A DNA stretch of 11,602 nucleotides from Flavobacterium psychrophilum. GTDB taxonomy: Bacteria > Bacteroidota > Bacteroidia > Flavobacteriales > Flavobacteriaceae. Positions within the stretch are counted from its first letter, which is position 1, and each line of letters opens with the position of its first letter. The position numbers were made by a program, and so were the translations under genes. The stretch lies in NCBI GenBank assembly GCA_945878515.1, contig CAMCTL010000113.1, positions 1 to 11,602 of the forward strand, in the 5' to 3' direction. Below, piece by piece: positions 3,410 to 11,602 of this stretch. The notes under the pieces are model-generated. The model saw only the letters and a program-made list of their open reading frames with translations. It ran no database searches and had not been told where the DNA came from.

Positions 3410-3889
3410 ATGATTATCAGAAAAGGGAATCCCGAAGATATGGAGGCAGTTTTGAGCCTCATTAAGGAATTGGCAATTTTTGAAAATGAACCAAATGCGG
3501 TTGTAATAACCGCTGAAGATTTAGTTAAAGACGGCTTTTCCACAACACCTTTATTTAATATTTTTGTTGCCGAAGTAGCATCACAAATCGTTGGAATAGC
3601 TTTATATTACTATCGTTATTCTACTTGGAAGGGAAAAACCATCCACTTAGAAGATTTGGTTGTAAAAGAAAGTATGCGTGGTTCAGGAATAGGCTTTGCA
3701 TTGTATTCTGAAATCATAAAACAAGGAAAAAAGGATAATGTTCGAAGAATTGAGTGGAATGTTTTAGACTGGAACACGCCAGCAATAAATTTTTACAAAA
3801 ATTCAGGTGCCGTAATCTTAGACGATTGGAGGGTTGCTCAAATGAATGAGGATGCAATTAACTATTTCGTTGATAATAAATTAAAATAA
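3410..3889 (+). CDS. GNAT-family N-acetyltransferase, SSAT/diamine-acetyltransferase-like
   Basis: Acetyl-CoA-dependent acetyltransferase of 159 residues. The acetyl-CoA pyrophosphate loop (motif A, R/Q-x-x-G-x-G) is R90-G-S-G-I-G95. The downstream IEWNVLDWNTPAINFYKNSGA (114-134, written here in two parts: IEWNVLDWNTPAI and NFYKNSGA) carries the conserved tyrosine (Y129) used as general acid in many GNATs. LAIFENEPNAVVITAEDL, YYRYSTWKG and HLEDLVV are the pattern I associate with the spermidine/spermine N1-acetyltransferase-like branch. A polyamine or diamine substrate is therefore plausible but unproven. The ATG at 3410 follows a good -7 box. A longer ATG-type reading in another frame across the same region is spurious. 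Aspartate kinase follows 57 nt later on the same strand, suggesting co-transcription. Confidence 0.85.
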   Translation: MIIRKGNPEDMEAVLSLIKELAIFENEPNAVVITAEDLVKDGFSTTPLFNIFVAEVASQIVGIALYYYRYSTWKGKTIHLEDLVVKESMRGSGIGFALYSEIIKQGKKDNVRRIEWNVLDWNTPAINFYKNSGAVILDDWRVAQMNEDAINYFVDNKLK

Positions 3890-3898
3890 AAAAAATCG

Positions 3899-3946
3899 TT
3901 TTCAAATTTCAAACTAAAAATCTGAAATCTAAAATCTAAAATTAAA
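3899..3946. repeat. Heptamer array directly before the aspartate kinase start
   Basis: The whole spacer can be cut into 7-bp units: TTTTCAA, ATTTCAA, ACTAAAA, ATCTGAA, ATCTAAA, ATCTAAA, ATTAAAA. The last unit runs into the A of the ATG at 3947. The ATCTAAA/ATCTGAA units match those after ahcY (925-952). Confidence 0.65.
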
Positions 3947-5203
3947 ATGAGAGTATTTAAGTTTGGTGGTGCATCTGTAAAAGACGCCGCGGGAATAAAA
4001 AACGTATATGACGTTTTGCAAAAAGTTGGTTATGAGGATGTATTATTGGTTGTTTCTGCTATGGGAAAAACCACGAATGCGCTCGAAGATGTTATAAAAA
4101 ATTACTTTGACAAATCCGACGAATTGAATGCATCTGTTCAGGAAGTAAAAAAATACCACAATCAAGTGCTAATCGATTTATTCGAAGACGAAAACAACCC
4201 AGTTTTTGCTGCTGTAAATTCACAATTTTCTGATTTGGAGTATTTTTTAGCACACAATAAATCGCCCAATTACAATTTTGTTTATGACCAAATTGTGAGC
4301 TATGGCGAATTGATTTCGACTACAATTTTGAGCCATTTTATGAGCTTCATGGGTATTAAAACACAATGGCTTGATGTACGGAATTTTATAAAAACCAATT
4401 CAAATTATAGAGATGCTGAAGTAGATTGGGAATTAACTCAGGCAACCATTTCCAAAAACGTTCAGAAAAAAATGTTGAATATTACCCAAGGATTTTTGGG
4501 TTCTGACGAAAATAATTTCACTACAACTTTAGGTCGAGAAGGTTCTGATTATACTGCTGGAATTTTTGCGTATTGCCTTAATGCCGAAAGTGTAACCATC
4601 TGGAAAGACGTTCCAGGAGTTATGAATGCCGATCCAAGATATTTTGAAAATGCAAGTTTATTGACCAATATTTCCTATCGCGAAGCCATCGAAATGGCGT
4701 TTTATGGCGCTACAGTTATTCACCCAAAAACTTTGCAACCTTTACAAAAAAAAGAAATTCCACTGTATGTAAAATCATTCATAAATCCGATGTTAGCTGG
4801 AACTTGTGTGTCAAAAGGTTCTGATTCGGAGTGGCAAATTCCTAGTTTTATTGTTAAAAGGAATCAACTTTTAATTTCCCTTGCCTCAATAGATTTTTCG
4901 TTTATTATGGAAGAAAATATTAGCGAAATTTTTGCTTTGTTTCACCAGTTCAAATTGAAAGTAAATCTAATTCAAAATTCGGCCATCAGTTTTTCGGTAT
5001 GTGTAGAAGATAAATTTTCAAATTTCAAAGATTTGAATCCTGTTCTTTCAAAAAAATTTAAAGTCGATTTCGATGAAAATGTAACACTATACACCATTCG
5101 ACATTTTAATGATAAAGCAGCGCAAACTGTGGAGCACAATAAAACCGTTTTGCTGAAACAAGTGAGCCGAGAGACGATGCAAGTAGTTACTAAAGAAAGC
5201 TAA
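3947..5203 (+). CDS. lysC: Aspartate kinase (monofunctional aspartokinase)
   Basis: Catalyses ATP-dependent phosphorylation of L-aspartate, the committed step towards lysine/diaminopimelate, threonine and methionine. The 418-residue protein has an N-terminal amino-acid-kinase domain: KFGGASV (5-11), VVSAMGKTTNAL (35-46), TTLGREGSDYTAG (193-205), TIWKDVPGVMNADPR (217-231) and YGATVIHPKTL (253-263). A C-terminal region (about 300-418) fits ACT-type regulatory modules. It is shorter than ThrA/MetL, has no homoserine dehydrogenase domain, and is therefore monofunctional. The symbol lysC is used in the generic sense. It follows the acetyltransferase gene by 57 nt of heptamer-repeat spacer and is probably its operon partner. 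Feedback inhibition through the ACT region is likely by family, but the effector cannot be read from the sequence. Confidence 0.92.
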   Translation: MRVFKFGGASVKDAAGIKNVYDVLQKVGYEDVLLVVSAMGKTTNALEDVIKNYFDKSDELNASVQEVKKYHNQVLIDLFEDENNPVFAAVNSQFSDLEYFLAHNKSPNYNFVYDQIVSYGELISTTILSHFMSFMGIKTQWLDVRNFIKTNSNYRDAEVDWELTQATISKNVQKKMLNITQGFLGSDENNFTTTLGREGSDYTAGIFAYCLNAESVTIWKDVPGVMNADPRYFENASLLTNISYREAIEMAFYGATVIHPKTLQPLQKKEIPLYVKSFINPMLAGTCVSKGSDSEWQIPSFIVKRNQLLISLASIDFSFIMEENISEIFALFHQFKLKVNLIQNSAISFSVCVEDKFSNFKDLNPVLSKKFKVDFDENVTLYTIRHFNDKAAQTVEHNKTVLLKQVSRETMQVVTKES

Positions 5204-5821: not shown

Positions 5822-6568
5822 ATGATGCTTCTCCGTTATCTATCCCAAATAGGAAAATACTTCTTGATGTGGAAAGAAATTTTCAGAAAACAGACCAAAT
5901 GGTCGGTCATGAAAAATCTAATCTTCAAAGAAATTGACGAATTAATTATTGACTCTCTTGGTATTGTAGCTTTTATTTCCGTGTTTGTGGGAGGTGTTGT
6001 TGCCATTCAAACCGCATTAAACTTAGATAGTCCATTAATTCCAAAAGATTTAATAGGATATGCCACACGCGAATCCGTGATTTTAGAATTTTCGCCAACA
6101 TTCATTTCAATTGTTATGGCTGGAAAAATGGGTTCTTTTATTACTTCAAGTATTGGTTCTATGAGAGTTACAGAGCAAATTGACGCATTAGAAGTTATGG
6201 GAATAAACTCCCTAAATTACCTTGTTTTTCCTAAACTAATTGCCATTTTATTGTACCCTTTTGTAATTGGAATCAGTATGTTTTTAGGTATCGTAGGCGG
6301 TTATATTGCGTCGGTCTACGGAGGTTTTGGTACGAGTACAGATTTTATAGCTGGTGTCCAAAATGATTTTGAACCCTTTCATGTCACTTATGCGTTTATT
6401 AAGACTTTCATTTTTGGAATTTTACTGGCATCAGTACCATCATTTCACGGTTATTATATGAAAGGTGGCGCACTTGAAGTCGGGAAAGCCAGTACAGTGG
6501 CTTTTGTTTGGACTTCGGTGATGATTATATTTGTGAATTATGTTTTAACACAATTACTTTTGACCTAA
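5822..6568 (+). CDS. mlaE: MlaE-family ABC transporter permease (lipid asymmetry/retrograde phospholipid transport)
   Basis: Inner-membrane permease of the MlaE (formerly DUF140) family, which with the MlaF ATPase and an MCE-domain MlaD partner moves phospholipids between the inner and outer membranes. The 248 residues show the family core: ESVILEFSPTFISIVMAGKM near 80-100, followed by GSFITSSIGSMRVTEQIDAL and EVMGINSLNYLVFPK. Hydrophobic segments lie at about 45-65, 130-160, 190-210 and 225-247, and the C-terminal block is FHGYYMKGGALEVGKAST. The ATG at 5822 gives a normal amphipathic N-terminus. The stop overlaps the start of the ATPase gene by one base (TAATG), so the two are translationally coupled. 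No MCE or periplasmic partner gene is in the window. Confidence 0.92.
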   Translation: MMLLRYLSQIGKYFLMWKEIFRKQTKWSVMKNLIFKEIDELIIDSLGIVAFISVFVGGVVAIQTALNLDSPLIPKDLIGYATRESVILEFSPTFISIVMAGKMGSFITSSIGSMRVTEQIDALEVMGINSLNYLVFPKLIAILLYPFVIGISMFLGIVGGYIASVYGGFGTSTDFIAGVQNDFEPFHVTYAFIKTFIFGILLASVPSFHGYYMKGGALEVGKASTVAFVWTSVMIIFVNYVLTQLLLT

Positions 6569-7329
6569 TGATAGAAATAAAAGATATAGAGAAATCATTT
6601 GGCGATACCAAAATTCTTAATGGAGTTTCCACAGTTTTTGAAACTGGAAAAACGAATTTAATTATTGGAAAAAGTGGTTCAGGAAAAACAGTTTTACTCA
6701 AATCGTTGCTTGGTATTCATACCCCTGAAGTAGGCACTATTTCTTTTGACGGCAGAATTTATTCCGAACTTGATGCAGATGAAAAACGAGAATTGAGAAC
6801 TGAAATTGGCATGCTTTTTCAAGGTAGTGCTCTGTTTGATTCGATGACGGTTTCAGAAAATGTGGGTTTTCCGCTGAAAATGTTTACCAATGACGATAAA
6901 CATAAAATTCAAGACCGTGTTGATTTTGTGCTAAATAGAGTGGCGCTTGTTGATGCACATCATAAACTACCTTCGGAAATTTCAGGCGGAATGCAAAAAC
7001 GTGTCGCTATTGCACGTGCAATTGTGAATAATCCTAAATACCTTTTTTGTGACGAACCCAATTCTGGTTTAGACCCAAATACAGCAACTCTGATTGACAA
7101 TCTTATCCATGAAATAACCGAAGAATACAACATTACAACCGTAATCAATACCCACGATATGAACTCTGTGATGGAAATTGGAGAGCATATTCTATTCTTA
7201 AAAAATGGCGTTAAAGCTTGGGAAGGTACAAAAGAACAAATTTTCCGAACCGATAATGAAGCTGTAGTTGACTTTGTGTATTCTTCAAATTTATTTAAAA
7301 AAGTTCGAGAAGCTTATTTAAAGGAATAA
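6568..7329 (+). CDS. mlaF: MlaF-family ABC transporter ATP-binding protein
   Basis: Cytoplasmic ATPase subunit that powers the adjacent MlaE permease. The 253 residues contain all ABC ATPase motifs: Walker A GKSGSGKT (34-41), Q-loop glutamine Q85 in MLFQGSALFDSMTV, signature ISGGMQKR (138-145), Walker B YLFCDEP (158-164, catalytic E163), D-loop SGLDP and the switch histidine H196. The LFQGSALFDSMTVSENVGFPL block is typical of the MlaF/Ttg2A branch. The reading frame is open 20 codons further upstream, but that extension lies inside mlaE in another frame. The ATG at 6568 sits in the TAATG overlap and gives the standard IEIKDIEKSFG opening, so it is the chosen start. A strong terminator follows at 7336-7363. 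Confidence 0.93.
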   Translation: MIEIKDIEKSFGDTKILNGVSTVFETGKTNLIIGKSGSGKTVLLKSLLGIHTPEVGTISFDGRIYSELDADEKRELRTEIGMLFQGSALFDSMTVSENVGFPLKMFTNDDKHKIQDRVDFVLNRVALVDAHHKLPSEISGGMQKRVAIARAIVNNPKYLFCDEPNSGLDPNTATLIDNLIHEITEEYNITTVINTHDMNSVMEIGEHILFLKNGVKAWEGTKEQIFRTDNEAVVDFVYSSNLFKKVREAYLKE

Positions 7330-7370
7330 AAAAAAGTTCTATCTAAATAATTTCAGATAGAACCCTTTTT
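7330..7370. terminator. Bidirectional terminator between mlaF and the mannose-1-phosphate guanylyltransferase gene
   Basis: GTTCTATCT (7336-7344) and AGATAGAAC (7355-7363) form a perfect 9-bp stem with a 10-nt loop. A run of A precedes it and CCTTTTT follows, so it can terminate transcription from both converging genes. It begins right after the mlaF stop and lies about 40 nt past the stop of the leftward gene. Confidence 0.85.
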
Positions 7371-7410
7371 AAAATTTGTATGATCTTTTATATGAAATGA
7401 ATATCAACTA

Positions 7411-8472
7411 TTAAAGCTTATTTGCCAATGCTGTTATTCTTTTTATATCTTGCTCCTTACTTTTAGGGTAAATAAGTAGAATTCCCTCTTTGTCCACAAT
7501 AATGTAATCTTGCAAACCATCAACAACAACAAGCTTGTTTGCATCAGTCCTGATGATGTTGCCCGAGGCATTTTCTAACACAACTTTTGCATTGATAACC
7601 CCGTTTTTATTTTCATCTTTGTCTAGTTTTTCGTGAAGTTGTCCCCAAGTTCCTAAATCGTTCCAATCGAAAGTAGCGGGAAGAACATACACATTTTTGG
7701 CACTTTCCATCACAGCGTAATCAATGGAAACATCTTCGGCCAGCGCATAATTTTCTTCGATAAAAGATTTTTCAGCATCCGTATTATAACTCTCTAAACC
7801 TTTAAGAAACAAAGTATTCATCGTTGGTTGGAACTTTTCGAAAGCCTCGGTAATTGCTTTGGCACTCCAAATAAAAATCCCTCCATTCCACAAGAAATTA
7901 CCACTTGCTAAAAAGGATTTAGCTGTTTCATAATCTGGTTTTTCACGAAATTGTGAGACTTTTTTTATTGGATTGGTATCTGTTTTATCAAATTCAATAT
8001 AACCAAAACCTGTATTTGGGTACGTCGGTTGAATTCCAAGTGTCATCAATGCATTTTCTTTGGAACAAAAATCAAAACATTGCTGCAAATTTTCTGCAAA
8101 AGTTGCTTCATCTTCTATCCAATGATCGCTTGGCGCCACAACCATAACTGCATCAGGATTTTGTTTTTGAATTTTTAACGCCGCATATAAAATACACGGA
8201 GCTGTGTTTCGCATTGCTGGTTCAAGCAATACTTGCTCTTGTTTTACCATTGGCAACTGCTCTAAAACTATAGAATTGTACTTCTCATTGGTCAAAATCA
8301 AAATATTCTCTACTGGAATTAATTTTGACAATCTACTGAAAGTTTTCTGGATCAAGGTATCACCAGCACCTAACATATCATGAAATTGTTTTGGAAATTC
8401 CGTTGTACTCACTGGCCAAAAACGGGAACCTACTCCACCGGCCATTAATATTGCGTAATAATTTTTGTTCAT
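7411..8472 (-). CDS. manC: Mannose-1-phosphate guanylyltransferase (GDP-mannose pyrophosphorylase), nucleotidyltransferase domain only
   Basis: Makes GDP-mannose from GTP and mannose 1-phosphate, the donor for mannose, fucose and related sugars in surface polysaccharides and glycoproteins. The 353-residue protein begins with the nucleotidyltransferase signature MAGGVGSRFWPVS (10-22) and FPKQF (26-30). It continues with EPAMRNTAPCI (84-94), VAPSDHWI (112-119), NTGFGYIE (153-160), FREKPD (175-180) and GNFLWNGGIFIW (191-202). It lacks the C-terminal cupin phosphomannose-isomerase domain found in bifunctional ManC/AlgA enzymes of about 470 residues, so it should be monofunctional. The short form is usual in Bacteroidota. 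The gene is monocistronic, ends at a shared terminator and is divergent from the lipoprotein gene. The symbol follows common usage for the activity. Confidence 0.92.
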   Translation of the reverse strand: MNKNYYAILMAGGVGSRFWPVSTTEFPKQFHDMLGAGDTLIQKTFSRLSKLIPVENILILTNEKYNSIVLEQLPMVKQEQVLLEPAMRNTAPCILYAALKIQKQNPDAVMVVAPSDHWIEDEATFAENLQQCFDFCSKENALMTLGIQPTYPNTGFGYIEFDKTDTNPIKKVSQFREKPDYETAKSFLASGNFLWNGGIFIWSAKAITEAFEKFQPTMNTLFLKGLESYNTDAEKSFIEENYALAEDVSIDYAVMESAKNVYVLPATFDWNDLGTWGQLHEKLDKDENKNGVINAKVVLENASGNIIRTDANKLVVVDGLQDYIIVDKEGILLIYPKSKEQDIKRITALANKL

Positions 8473-9770: not shown

Positions 9771-9812
9771 AGTTATGAGTTATGGGTTATGAGTTATAGG
9801 TTATGGGTTAAG
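9771..9812. repeat. Tandem heptamer array, RGTTATG unit (six copies)
   Basis: Six contiguous 7-bp units: AGTTATG, AGTTATG, GGTTATG, AGTTATA, GGTTATG, GGTTAAG. The array begins 4 nt upstream of the sprT-like start codon (minus strand). Inverted copies lie at 9847-9874, next to the SDR stop. Confidence 0.85.
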
Positions 9813-9881: not shown

Positions 9882-10562
9882 CTATGGATTCGTCGATGAA
9901 ACTTGCAATACTTTTCCGTTGTAATATTTATTCCCGGTCAAGGAAAAATCAAAAATATAATTAGCCATATCTTTTGCTGAAATTGGTGCTTCATACCCTG
10001 GAAATGCTTCTTGCAACATTTCAGTTTGAACGGCTCCAAGTGCCAAAACATTAAACGAAATTCCTCTTTCTTTGTATTCTTCTGCCAATAATTCCGACAA
10101 GGTAATCACGGCTCCTTTGCTGGAACTATAAGCTGCCAAACCAGCAAATTTAAGACTTCCTTGAATTCCTCCCATCGAACTTATAGTAACTACGTGGCTT
10201 CCTTTTTGTAAAAACGGCAAGCAAATCCGAGTCAAATTGGCTACACCAAAAACATTCACTTTATAAATTTTTTCGAAATCTGTTTGTGAAGTTTCCGAAA
10301 AAGGTTTCAACAACAAACTTCCCGCATTGTGGATTACGATATCAACAGCTGCCCATGATTTAGAAAGAAAATTTTCAACTTGCTGCATTTCGTTTTCATC
10401 GGATAAATCGACAGAAAGGCAAGTTATATTTGGGTTTTCGATAAGGTCTTGAGGCGTTTTTCTGGAAATGGCTAATACATTATGTCCAGCATTGGCAAAC
10501 TGCAAAGCCAATTCGTAACCAATTCCTCTGGAAGTTCCTGTAATGATGATGTTTTTACTCAT
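9882..10562 (-). CDS. Short-chain dehydrogenase/reductase (SDR family oxidoreductase)
   Basis: Classical SDR of 226 residues, an NAD(P)-dependent oxidoreductase on an unidentified alcohol or ketone. It shows the cofactor motif TGTSRGIG (8-15), VDLSD (51-55, adenine-ring contact), HNAG (78-81), N103 in KVNVFG, the catalytic serine in ISSMGG (S128/S129) and the Y145-x-x-x-K149 pair in AAYSSSKGA. R34 in AISRK after the second strand suggests NADP(H) preference, which is inference. The start is ATGAGTAAAAAC at 10562. The repaired reading of the upstream toxin-like gene would stop inside this same start (TAA at 10555-10557), so the SDR appears to be the third cistron of that cassette, and no separate promoter is evident. 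A relic of a second SDR start lies beyond the cassette at 11167-11232. Confidence 0.92.
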   Translation of the reverse strand: MSKNIIITGTSRGIGYELALQFANAGHNVLAISRKTPQDLIENPNITCLSVDLSDENEMQQVENFLSKSWAAVDIVIHNAGSLLLKPFSETSQTDFEKIYKVNVFGVANLTRICLPFLQKGSHVVTISSMGGIQGSLKFAGLAAYSSSKGAVITLSELLAEEYKERGISFNVLALGAVQTEMLQEAFPGYEAPISAKDMANYIFDFSLTGNKYYNGKVLQVSSTNP

Positions 10563-10899
10563 TTGATTGGAGTATATTTAAAAAATTAGCTTCAAAAATG
10601 TGATTGTTTGTAAGGTGCTTTATCAAATAGTTTTTTCCTTTTTAGAGAAGAAAATATACCAAGTAGTTCTACTATTAGATTTATAAAAAAACATAAAAAT
10701 CTCCATATTTTAAAAGGGAATTTGGAGATTTTTTGTGTGGTAATGCGTCAATATTTTCTTCGATGTAAAAGACTAATTTTTGAACATACGCAATTGCATT
10801 TTCTTCATAACTGAAATATTCTTTGCTAAAAAGTGTTGTAATTAATTCGTCAAAAAAATCTTGAACATAATTTGTATAATTAACGGCTACTTTTTCCAA
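10555..10899 (-). pseudogene. RelE/ParE-like toxin gene with two compensating frameshifts
   Basis: The open frame from a TTG start at 10899 gives 72 residues ending ...PHKKSPNSLLKYGDFYVFL at a TAA (10681-10683). Removing one base from the 7-nt homopolymer at 10685-10691 continues the protein as YKSNSRTTWYIFFSKKE. Adding one base to the 6-nt homopolymer at 10631-10636 continues it as KNYLIKHLTNNHIFEANFLN and so on to a TAA at 10555-10557. The repaired product is 114 residues. Its pattern (NYTNYVQDFFDELI, FPHKK-like, F-Y-K-x-N-x-R-T-T-W-Y-I-F-F, Y-L-I-x-x-L-T-N-N-H) is what I recall of RelE/ParE-type toxins in Bacteroidota. Either the gene is inactivated or the two homopolymers hold sequencing errors. 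TTG is preferred as start because no ATG lies nearby and it overlaps the antitoxin gene by 13 nt. Confidence 0.7.
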
Positions 10900-11114
10900 G
10901 GTAATTTTTTAATAGTGTCAATCGCCCTTTCTAAAAACACTTCAGACGAAACTGAATTTTCCCATTCGGTATCAAAATCATCTTTTTCTTCTAAAACTCC
11001 AATTTGTTGAAGAAATGGTTCCAACTGTGAACCGTATTTTTGGAGATTTATCTTTACAAAAATTGGAGTTCCATTTGCATCATTCTCAAATTGAATGTCT
11101 TCAATAGCTGCCAT
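10887..11114 (-). CDS. Putative antitoxin, partner of the RelE/ParE-like gene
   Basis: A small acidic protein of 75 residues from ATG at 11114, starting MAAIEDIQFENDANGTPIF and continuing with FVKINLQKYGSQLEPFL, then EEKDDFDTEWENSVSSEVFL, and ending in AIDTIKKLPWKK. I do not recognise a named DNA-binding fold. The assignment as antitoxin rests on size, acidity, position before a RelE/ParE-like frame and the 13-nt overlap between the two genes. An in-frame TTG at 11132 would extend the protein by six residues, but it lies inside the TACATTTG promoter box, so the ATG is preferred. The pair lies between the intact SDR gene and the SDR relic. If it is an antitoxin, it probably represses its own promoter, as is usual for such operons. 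Confidence 0.65.
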   Translation of the reverse strand: MAAIEDIQFENDANGTPIFVKINLQKYGSQLEPFLQQIGVLEEKDDFDTEWENSVSSEVFLERAIDTIKKLPWKK

Positions 11115-11129
11115 AATATTTAATTTTAC

Positions 11130-11157
11130 CAAATGTACTAAATATTTTTATTCAAAA
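11130..11157 (-). promoter_or_regulatory. Probable promoter of the toxin-antitoxin-like cassette
   Basis: On the minus strand TTTTG (11153-11157) and TACATTTG (11130-11137, perfect TAnnTTTG) are separated by 15 nt, slightly shorter than usual. The leader to the ATG at 11114 would be only about 10 nt. This is the only clear promoter upstream of the SDR gene. Confidence 0.5.
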
Positions 11158-11166
11158 TGATTTGTC

Positions 11167-11232
11167 TTATTTTTTCAAAGCCAATTCATAACCAATTCCT
11201 CGCGATGTTCCTGTGATGATGATGTTTTTCAT
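11167..11232 (-). pseudogene. Relic of a second SDR gene: first 19 codons only
   Basis: From an ATG at 11232 the frame reads MKNIIITGTSRGIGYELALKK and then stops. NIIITGTSRGIGYELAL is identical in protein sequence to residues 4-20 of the intact SDR. At DNA level 46 of 51 bases match, and all five differences are silent (ATT/ATC, ACT/ACA, TCC/TCG, AGA/CGA, TAC/TAT). The homology ends abruptly after the TTG leucine codon, beyond which the sequence turns AT-rich towards the cassette promoter. The remnant cannot make an enzyme: it retains only the cofactor glycine motif. Confidence 0.85.
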
Positions 11233-11240
11233 TTTGCTAA

Positions 11241-11279
11241 ATTAAAAAAATTCCATCAAGTATAAACAAGATGGAATTT
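11241..11279 (-). terminator. Terminator of the leftward membrane-protein gene
   Basis: AAATTCCATC (11248-11257) and GATGGAATTT (11270-11279) form a 10-bp stem with a 12-nt loop, followed on the minus strand by a T run. It lies 5 nt past the stop of the membrane-protein gene and 9 nt before the start of the SDR relic. Confidence 0.82.
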
Positions 11280-11284
11280 AATAG

Positions 11285-11602
11285 TTAACCTTTTATACTC
11301 TTAAAATATTTTTGATACACTTTAAACCCTTGGACAACGGCGAGCACCACAAAAAATAAGGGTATAACCACGGGAACAATATATTTTGAAAAAGAAAAAG
11401 TGTTTTGCGATAAAGTATTCAACAAAACGATAATGGCTAGCATTCCAAAAAAAGTACCCACTAAGGTGCCGAAAATATAATAAAATTTAATCTTTCCATC
11501 TAAAAAAATAGATTTGGCATTCACTAAATACAAATTCCAACCCATCCAAAAAGGGATTTGAATAAAATTCAATCCACACAAAACCAAACCAATTAGAAAA
11601 GG
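11285..11602 (-). CDS. Multi-spanning membrane protein, C-terminal part (probably LysE-like transporter); 5' end outside the window
   Basis: The frame is open to the window edge (105 visible residues), so the apparent TTG start at 11587 is internal and not the true start. The visible part has three hydrophobic segments: FLIGLVLCGLNFIQIPFWMG (about 2-21, with the rest of that helix to about 26), a glycine-rich span with GTLVGTFFGMLAIIVLLN (45-62), and YIVPVVIPLFFVVLAVVQGF (74-93). It ends in the basic tail KVYQKYFKSIKG. The G-L-N-F-x-x-I-P-F motif and the helix layout resemble the C-terminal half of LysE-type exporters of flavobacteria. That assignment comes from memory and is moderate at best; the substrate is unknown. 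The gene has its own terminator. Confidence 0.6.
   Translation of the reverse strand, partial: PFLIGLVLCGLNFIQIPFWMGWNLYLVNAKSIFLDGKIKFYYIFGTLVGTFFGMLAIIVLLNTLSQNTFSFSKYIVPVVIPLFFVVLAVVQGFKVYQKYFKSIKG

Follow-up and report, generated by a model that had tools for sequence, protein, structure and literature searches.

A relic gene start beside a toxin-antitoxin-like cassette in Flavobacterium: a probable scar of transfer with a second version of a short-chain dehydrogenase gene

A two-gene, toxin-antitoxin-like cassette lies between an intact short-chain dehydrogenase (SDR) gene and a relic of an SDR gene start in the Flavobacterium DNA analyzed here, a stretch of 11,602 nucleotides (the window). 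We consider it quite probable that the cassette came from another Flavobacterium, already fused to a second version of the SDR gene, and that the relic was left behind as a scar. The features of the region are listed below.

11285..11602, minus strand: small putative membrane-protein gene, the upstream neighbor; an open reading frame that is open at the window edge and carries the label given in the earlier note.
11233..11284, minus strand: putative resident upstream segment, with an inverted repeat, then a T run and a short leader; recognized by similarity to cassette-free loci.
11176..11232, minus strand: relic, MKNIIITGTSRGIGYELAL, read as the resident SDR start from the repeat, the upstream similarity, and its MKN start.
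11175..11176, no strand: left junction, where SDR similarity ends and apparently foreign sequence starts.
10887..11114, minus strand: antitoxin-like gene of 75 codons, 71% to that of locus L074.
10681..10899, minus strand: toxin-like gene, frame broken after 72 codons, 73% to that of L074 over residues 1 to 71.
10555..10563, minus strand: cassette/SDR fusion point, AATGAGTAA, where the toxin-type frame reaches its stop codon within the start of the SDR, as seen in the window and in L074/L081.
9882..10562, minus strand: intact SDR gene of the MSKN type, 226 amino acids (Pfam adh_short, E = 6.3e-43).

The intact SDR is 96% to P0071 of the protein database and is followed, in minus-strand order, by an SprT-like gene. 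Short tandem-like GTTATGAGTTATGG repeats lie between these two genes (9771-9810), and a similar text, GTTATAAGTTATGA, comes after the SDR in L055. The membrane-protein-like gene matched no Pfam family at an E value of ≤0.1. At the far end of the window, positions 661-843 are similar to the terminal part of a DDE_3 transposase at an E value of 6e-5, which falls short of the curated cut-off; together with inverted repeats nearby (308-346 and 494-532), they are the remains of an insertion element.

The pair 10503-10556 and 11176-11229 (54 nt, 91%) heads the list of 24 direct-repeat families in the window, and matching the SDR head against its own upstream sequence returned it at an E value of 2.7e-18. 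The ATG of the relic occupies 11232-11230, SDR-like sequence runs to 11176, and the frame continues to a stop at 11167. Relic and intact start share 18 codons (SDR residues 3 to 20) with five base differences, at codons 7, 10, 11, 12, and 16, all of them synonymous. The earlier note had counted 17 identical residues over 51 bases; its five silent changes stand, and the full block is one codon longer. In the start block the relic is closest to L015 (0.93), while relic and L004 agree at 0.83 and the intact start and L004 at 0.89. Its TCG and CGA codons are rare, occurring in 1 and 5 of 79 orthologues, respectively. Both observations count against the transfer reading given below.

Under a neutral model, the probability that five changes on one copy are all silent is 0.0005 to 0.0022, and it is still 0.013 to 0.028 if only three fell on the relic. 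Among the 79 SDR orthologues, in contrast, 26 of the 38 pairs with five differences in the block (0.684) differ by silent changes only. Because the pattern is neutrally improbable yet is found in most such orthologue pairs, both starts most likely diverged as working genes. This supports the proposal of the earlier note that two functional lineages were involved, and its argument that a simple recent duplication would not give silent-only changes agrees with the neutral probabilities for five changes.

The head-against-upstream scan was also run on 79 other usable SDR loci, where it returned matches of at most 29 nt and no second scar. The scan reached up to 4 kb upstream; at least 1 kb was present in 78 of the 79 loci, and 949 nt in L068. 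L055 begins inside the SDR and was left out of the set of 80, here and in the count of start codons, and L081, which is the same locus as L074, was left out of the repeat scan.

Which of the two starts was resident is suggested by what lies upstream. The relic is separated from the membrane-protein gene by 52 bases, and these resemble the sequence upstream of intact SDR starts in four cassette-free loci. The similar segment stands directly before the intact start in L002 (98% of 51 nt), L003 (88% of 48 nt), and L007 (94% of 32 nt), and 10 bases before it in L004 (96% of 48 nt). Because the relic thus shares its upstream sequence with the SDR genes of these loci, we take it to be the resident SDR start, and the check on cassette-free relatives proposed in the earlier note came out as expected. 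So did the expected order of genes: in 7 of 80 loci the SDR is preceded, at no more than 300 nt, by a relative of the membrane-protein gene, and none of the seven holds the cassette. L046 also has a segment matching the relic's upstream sequence (87% of 45 nt), but at a distance of about 1 kb from the SDR, on its upstream side; such hairpins therefore occur elsewhere than at SDR starts.

The start codons point the same way. The intact SDR of the window begins with ATGAGTAAA (MSKN), whereas the relic begins with MKN, like most cassette-free orthologues. Among the 79 usable loci, the codon directly before the KN codons, where the relic has its start, was ATG in 69 and TTG in 2. Eight of the 79, L074 among them, have at least one extra codon at the start, and the ATGAGTAAA start of the intact copy recurs in L074 alone. 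Two loci, L001 (about 1800-1901) and L012 (about 3840-3954), have an additional ATGAAA and some 80 to 110 bases inserted just before the SDR start; the inserts have ATTCCATTTTCCGT and AGTAACTTCGA in common and are perhaps another small insert at the same SDR start. The contigs of L005, L012, and L069, all from metagenome-assembled genomes (MAGs), bear the labels Lentimicrobium, Klebsiella pneumoniae, and Bifidobacterium breve, in that order, but carry Flavobacterium-like SDR/SprT loci and are probably from mislabeled or contaminated bins.

Among the 80 loci, the cassette precedes the SDR in one only, L074, from a Flavobacteriaceae MAG (71% for the antitoxin and 73% for the toxin). Its toxin is full length and the toxin's stop codon falls within the SDR start AATGAGTAA; the upstream repeat scan found no relic there. 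L079 has a closely similar SDR start with MKN and no cassette. Apart from the window, L074 alone was seen as DNA with cassette and SDR together, and it is too distant to be the donor. The fusion predicts the end of the toxin: C termini of NE, ND, or KE occur in 13 of 36 aligned toxins (that of L074 plus 35 of 54 homologues), of which L074 alone was seen as DNA.

Protein records suggest further linked pairs. Starts of MSKN, VSKN, or MVSKN were found in 20 of the best 120 of 4,360 SDR homologues. We compared the longest-contig sizes listed for these 120 proteins with those of 69 cassette proteins; the comparison concerns the sizes only. Equal sizes were found for MSKN SDR P0071 and cassette protein P0048 (10,057), for P0114 and P0002/P0027 (87,289, with the same source list), for P0129 and P0005 (51,730), and for P0186 and P0008 (2,775); the last agreement may be due to chance. 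There is one counter-case, toxin P0035 and MKN SDR P0105, both at 14,827 but with different listed sources. Agreements at sizes of at least 10 kb numbered 4, against 0.02 expected after jittering, and overall 5 were seen against 0.7 expected. No cassette protein with an equal longest contig was found for 16 of the 20 SKN-start SDRs, two of them from F. aquatile, and an SKN start is therefore no proof of a cassette.

The repeat could instead have been made by the insertion itself. Restriction-modification units of Helicobacter provide a model, insertion with a long target duplication, for which PMC1643837 and PMC2654758 cite Nobusato et al. 2000. The pattern outlined in PMC1643837 looks similar, in that a selfish-type gene pair stands between direct repeats of a neighboring gene. 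Applied to the window, insertion into the SDR start with a target duplication of about 57 bp is nevertheless improbable, although it fares best among the alternatives. Copies made in this way would be identical at first, and the noncoding one should then drift nonsilently; the window's copies, with five silent differences and MKN against MSKN, do not look like products of one target but like diverged alleles of different origin, the intact one having the cassette-type start. In addition, L074 has the same cassette-SDR fusion and no repeat, and a flanking direct repeat was found in only 1 of 33 toxin-homologue loci, where it measures 20 nt. One expectation of the model does hold, namely, that relatives with an empty site have a single copy: there is no second upstream copy in the 79 usable loci (of which L074 holds the cassette).

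The antitoxin-like protein has 16 homologues in the protein database, the best at 93%. Neither window protein reached the cut-off of a Pfam or NCBIfam family, and Pfam and PADLOC runs on four homologous pairs returned nothing above the cut-off (the NCBIfam run covered the window's two proteins). The toxin frame of the window is broken, with residual DNA similarity onward to the SDR start; a comparison of P0066 with full-length homologues forms part of the evidence for this gene. The homologues P0035, P0048, and P0050 are shortened to 91 residues, and because of this the C-terminal part of the toxin may have been lost more than once.

An AlphaFold model of the intact L074 toxin (mean pLDDT, 90.2) was compared with the PDB by Foldseek, and the best matches were chains of the PfiAT complex (E = 1.5e-3, probability 1.00), followed by ParE and RelE toxins; every E value exceeded 0.001, and the best four matches had TM scores of 0.54 to 0.62 with an rmsd of about 6. 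Judged by title, the top 35 PDB rows all describe toxins or complexes of toxin and antitoxin, except for two conserved hypothetical proteins of Helicobacter pylori, which we take to be RelE-like. A PDB sequence search with the toxin alignment also returned two designed proteins, but only 18 to 19 residues were matched and we judged these hits to be chance. The gene pair is thus RelE/ParE-like by predicted fold, and it shares with modules of that superfamily the antitoxin-toxin order with an overlap. It differs from them in falling outside the families of Pfam, NCBIfam, and PADLOC, and its activity is a prediction.

The toxin family is common, since homologues occur in 81 of 398 genomes of the genus (E ≤ 1e-8). 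Close relatives of the antitoxin are rare: G001, the genome of L074, was the only one with such a relative among sets of 8 and 296 genomes, and none was found in 398 and 397 other genomes (partly overlapping draws). Another idea is that of a mobile element: the cassette would bring along its own copy of the SDR 5′ end as an attachment site and integrate site-specifically. In favor of this, both genomes examined as DNA have the end of the cassette fused with the start of the SDR. No integrase-like frame lies between the relic and the SDR, however, L074 has no second half-site, viral contigs yielded no toxin homologue, and a search of plasmids yielded one distant antitoxin match; we regard such an element as slightly less probable still than a long target duplication.

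Two further explanations deserve very little credence. A tandem duplication of the SDR, with decay of one copy and later insertion of the cassette, would account for a gene start present as a direct repeat, but no second SDR of this type exists in the 80 loci (L003 shows no more than a remote 27% match some 3.3 kb downstream), so that the full tandem paralogues named in the earlier note as refuting its proposal were not found among them; none lies upstream in the 79 usable loci, the copies differ silently only, and the relic stops after 19 codons with no further SDR remains. Equally slight is the chance that the relic persists because it regulates the cassette operon, as a short leader frame of 21 codons. 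Its intact frame and silent changes might suggest this, but a resident origin accounts for both and the 79 usable loci offer no second example.

If the intact SDR arrived with the cassette, its 5′ part may be foreign to the genome. The nearest of L001 to L021 to the window is L004, where the genes are present, in sprT (0.882), manC (0.889), mlaF (0.869), and mlaE (0.854); the mlaE, mlaF, and manC names are those that we presume for the window's open reading frames at 5822-6568, 6568-7329, and 7411-8472, and over 5822-8472 as a whole L004 agrees with the window at 87%. In the SDR, L004 stands at only 0.840 and ranks 11th, with ten others nearer. In a regression on core identity across 14 genomes including the window, the window-L004 pair had the lowest residual of 91 pairs over SDR bases 1 to 384 (z = −2.24) and an ordinary one over bases 385 to 672 (z = −0.28). 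The 5′ residuals of L004-L015 and L013-L014 were nearly as low (z = −2.2), and because L004-L015 reaches this value too, L004 rather than the window may be the one that changed. With the window and 28 of the 80 loci in the trees, the AU test did not reject a window-plus-L004 clade, whether for the 5′ part of the SDR (P = 0.328), for its 3′ part (P = 0.878), or for the gene as a whole (P = 0.627). Since the AU test is not significant, we consider a mosaic SDR to be suggestive only. The gene tree advised in the earlier note was thus a weak check; the 5′ and whole-gene results do not reject window and L004 as a clade, and L004, the nearest relative in other genes, is not the locus that the relic resembles most. 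A further pattern, in which the window and P0071 proteins have no differences in residues 1 to 66 and ten after, was noticed post hoc, and we dropped it as proof of a breakpoint because it was noticed after the data had been seen.

From these comparisons we infer a transfer event, a one-sided mechanism, and a donor lineage. In the resident Flavobacterium, an SDR gene starting ATGAAAAAC would have come next after the membrane-protein gene. This bacterium would have taken up DNA from another Flavobacterium lineage in which the two-gene cassette was fused to an SDR start, the stop codon of the toxin lying inside ATGAGTAA and giving the SDR its MSKN start. One end of the incoming DNA would have undergone a homologous crossover within the SDR gene, and the other would have become attached behind codon 19 of the resident gene by a nonhomologous join. 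The outcome would be the present order, in which the resident upstream region leads to the relic start, then to the cassette, and last to an SDR whose 5′ part is foreign.

On the homologous side, an SDR orthologue follows the cassette at the resident position and L074 displays the cassette-SDR linkage; on the other side, resident sequence has been kept, with the relic's upstream segment at 98% to L002 and 96% to L004. The left join appears to be nonhomologous. The 42 nt beyond 11176 gave only short matches (E = 0.016 or weaker) in 86 loci. One candidate for junction homology, 17 to 18 nt common to the relic end and a gene in five loci (presumably acyl-CoA dehydrogenase-like), was dropped because it extends only two or three bases beyond the SDR match. 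The earlier note had proposed that the cassette arrived with a diverged SDR copy by homologous recombination and left a scar that marks the insertion point to the nucleotide. The L074 fusion and the relic's upstream sequence favor the arrival and the scar, but the left join does not look homologous, and nucleotide precision holds for the left junction, while the right crossover within the SDR was not located.

Because one homologous exchange in the SDR and one apparently nonhomologous join are needed, the arrangement most likely reflects homology-facilitated illegitimate recombination. This mechanism was proposed, not demonstrated, in PMC5361080 to explain why arrays of immunity genes are displaced in type VI clusters of Vibrio. 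In that model, too, a homologous anchor and a nonhomologous end insert a foreign toxin-type module beside a resident remnant; the window differs in having an SDR gene as anchor, 57 bp of a gene start as remnant, and a toxin-antitoxin-like pair as module. The window would thus be a clear case of an already known kind of gene transfer. Among the papers listed by literature searches, which covered journals without subscription, none dealt with such a scar in Flavobacterium.

The scar is single so far, and the stop-in-start fusion is recurrent. The next gene begins inside the last codons of the toxin in 3 of 33 toxin loci, namely, an SDR in L081 (the L074 locus) and a gene starting MALKTIE in L089 and L091, which Pfam assigns in L091 to the GNAT acetyltransferases. 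The toxin of L103, too, ends in AAATGGCTTTA, with an LKTIE gene starting 62 nt on. The distribution of small toxin-antitoxin pairs is patchy, and it is often unclear by what route they spread when no transposase is present. We tentatively raise the possibility, which we hold to be somewhat less than even, that a RelE/ParE-like subfamily of Flavobacterium is fused to the starts of host genes, the stop codon of the toxin overlapping the start codon of the host gene, and spreads from species to species without a transposase or integrase, with the host gene as homologous anchor. The scar in the window marks a resident allele, an incoming allele, and one junction at the nucleotide level, and it suggests that overlap with the start of a conserved gene would give a cassette a ready-made homologous arm.
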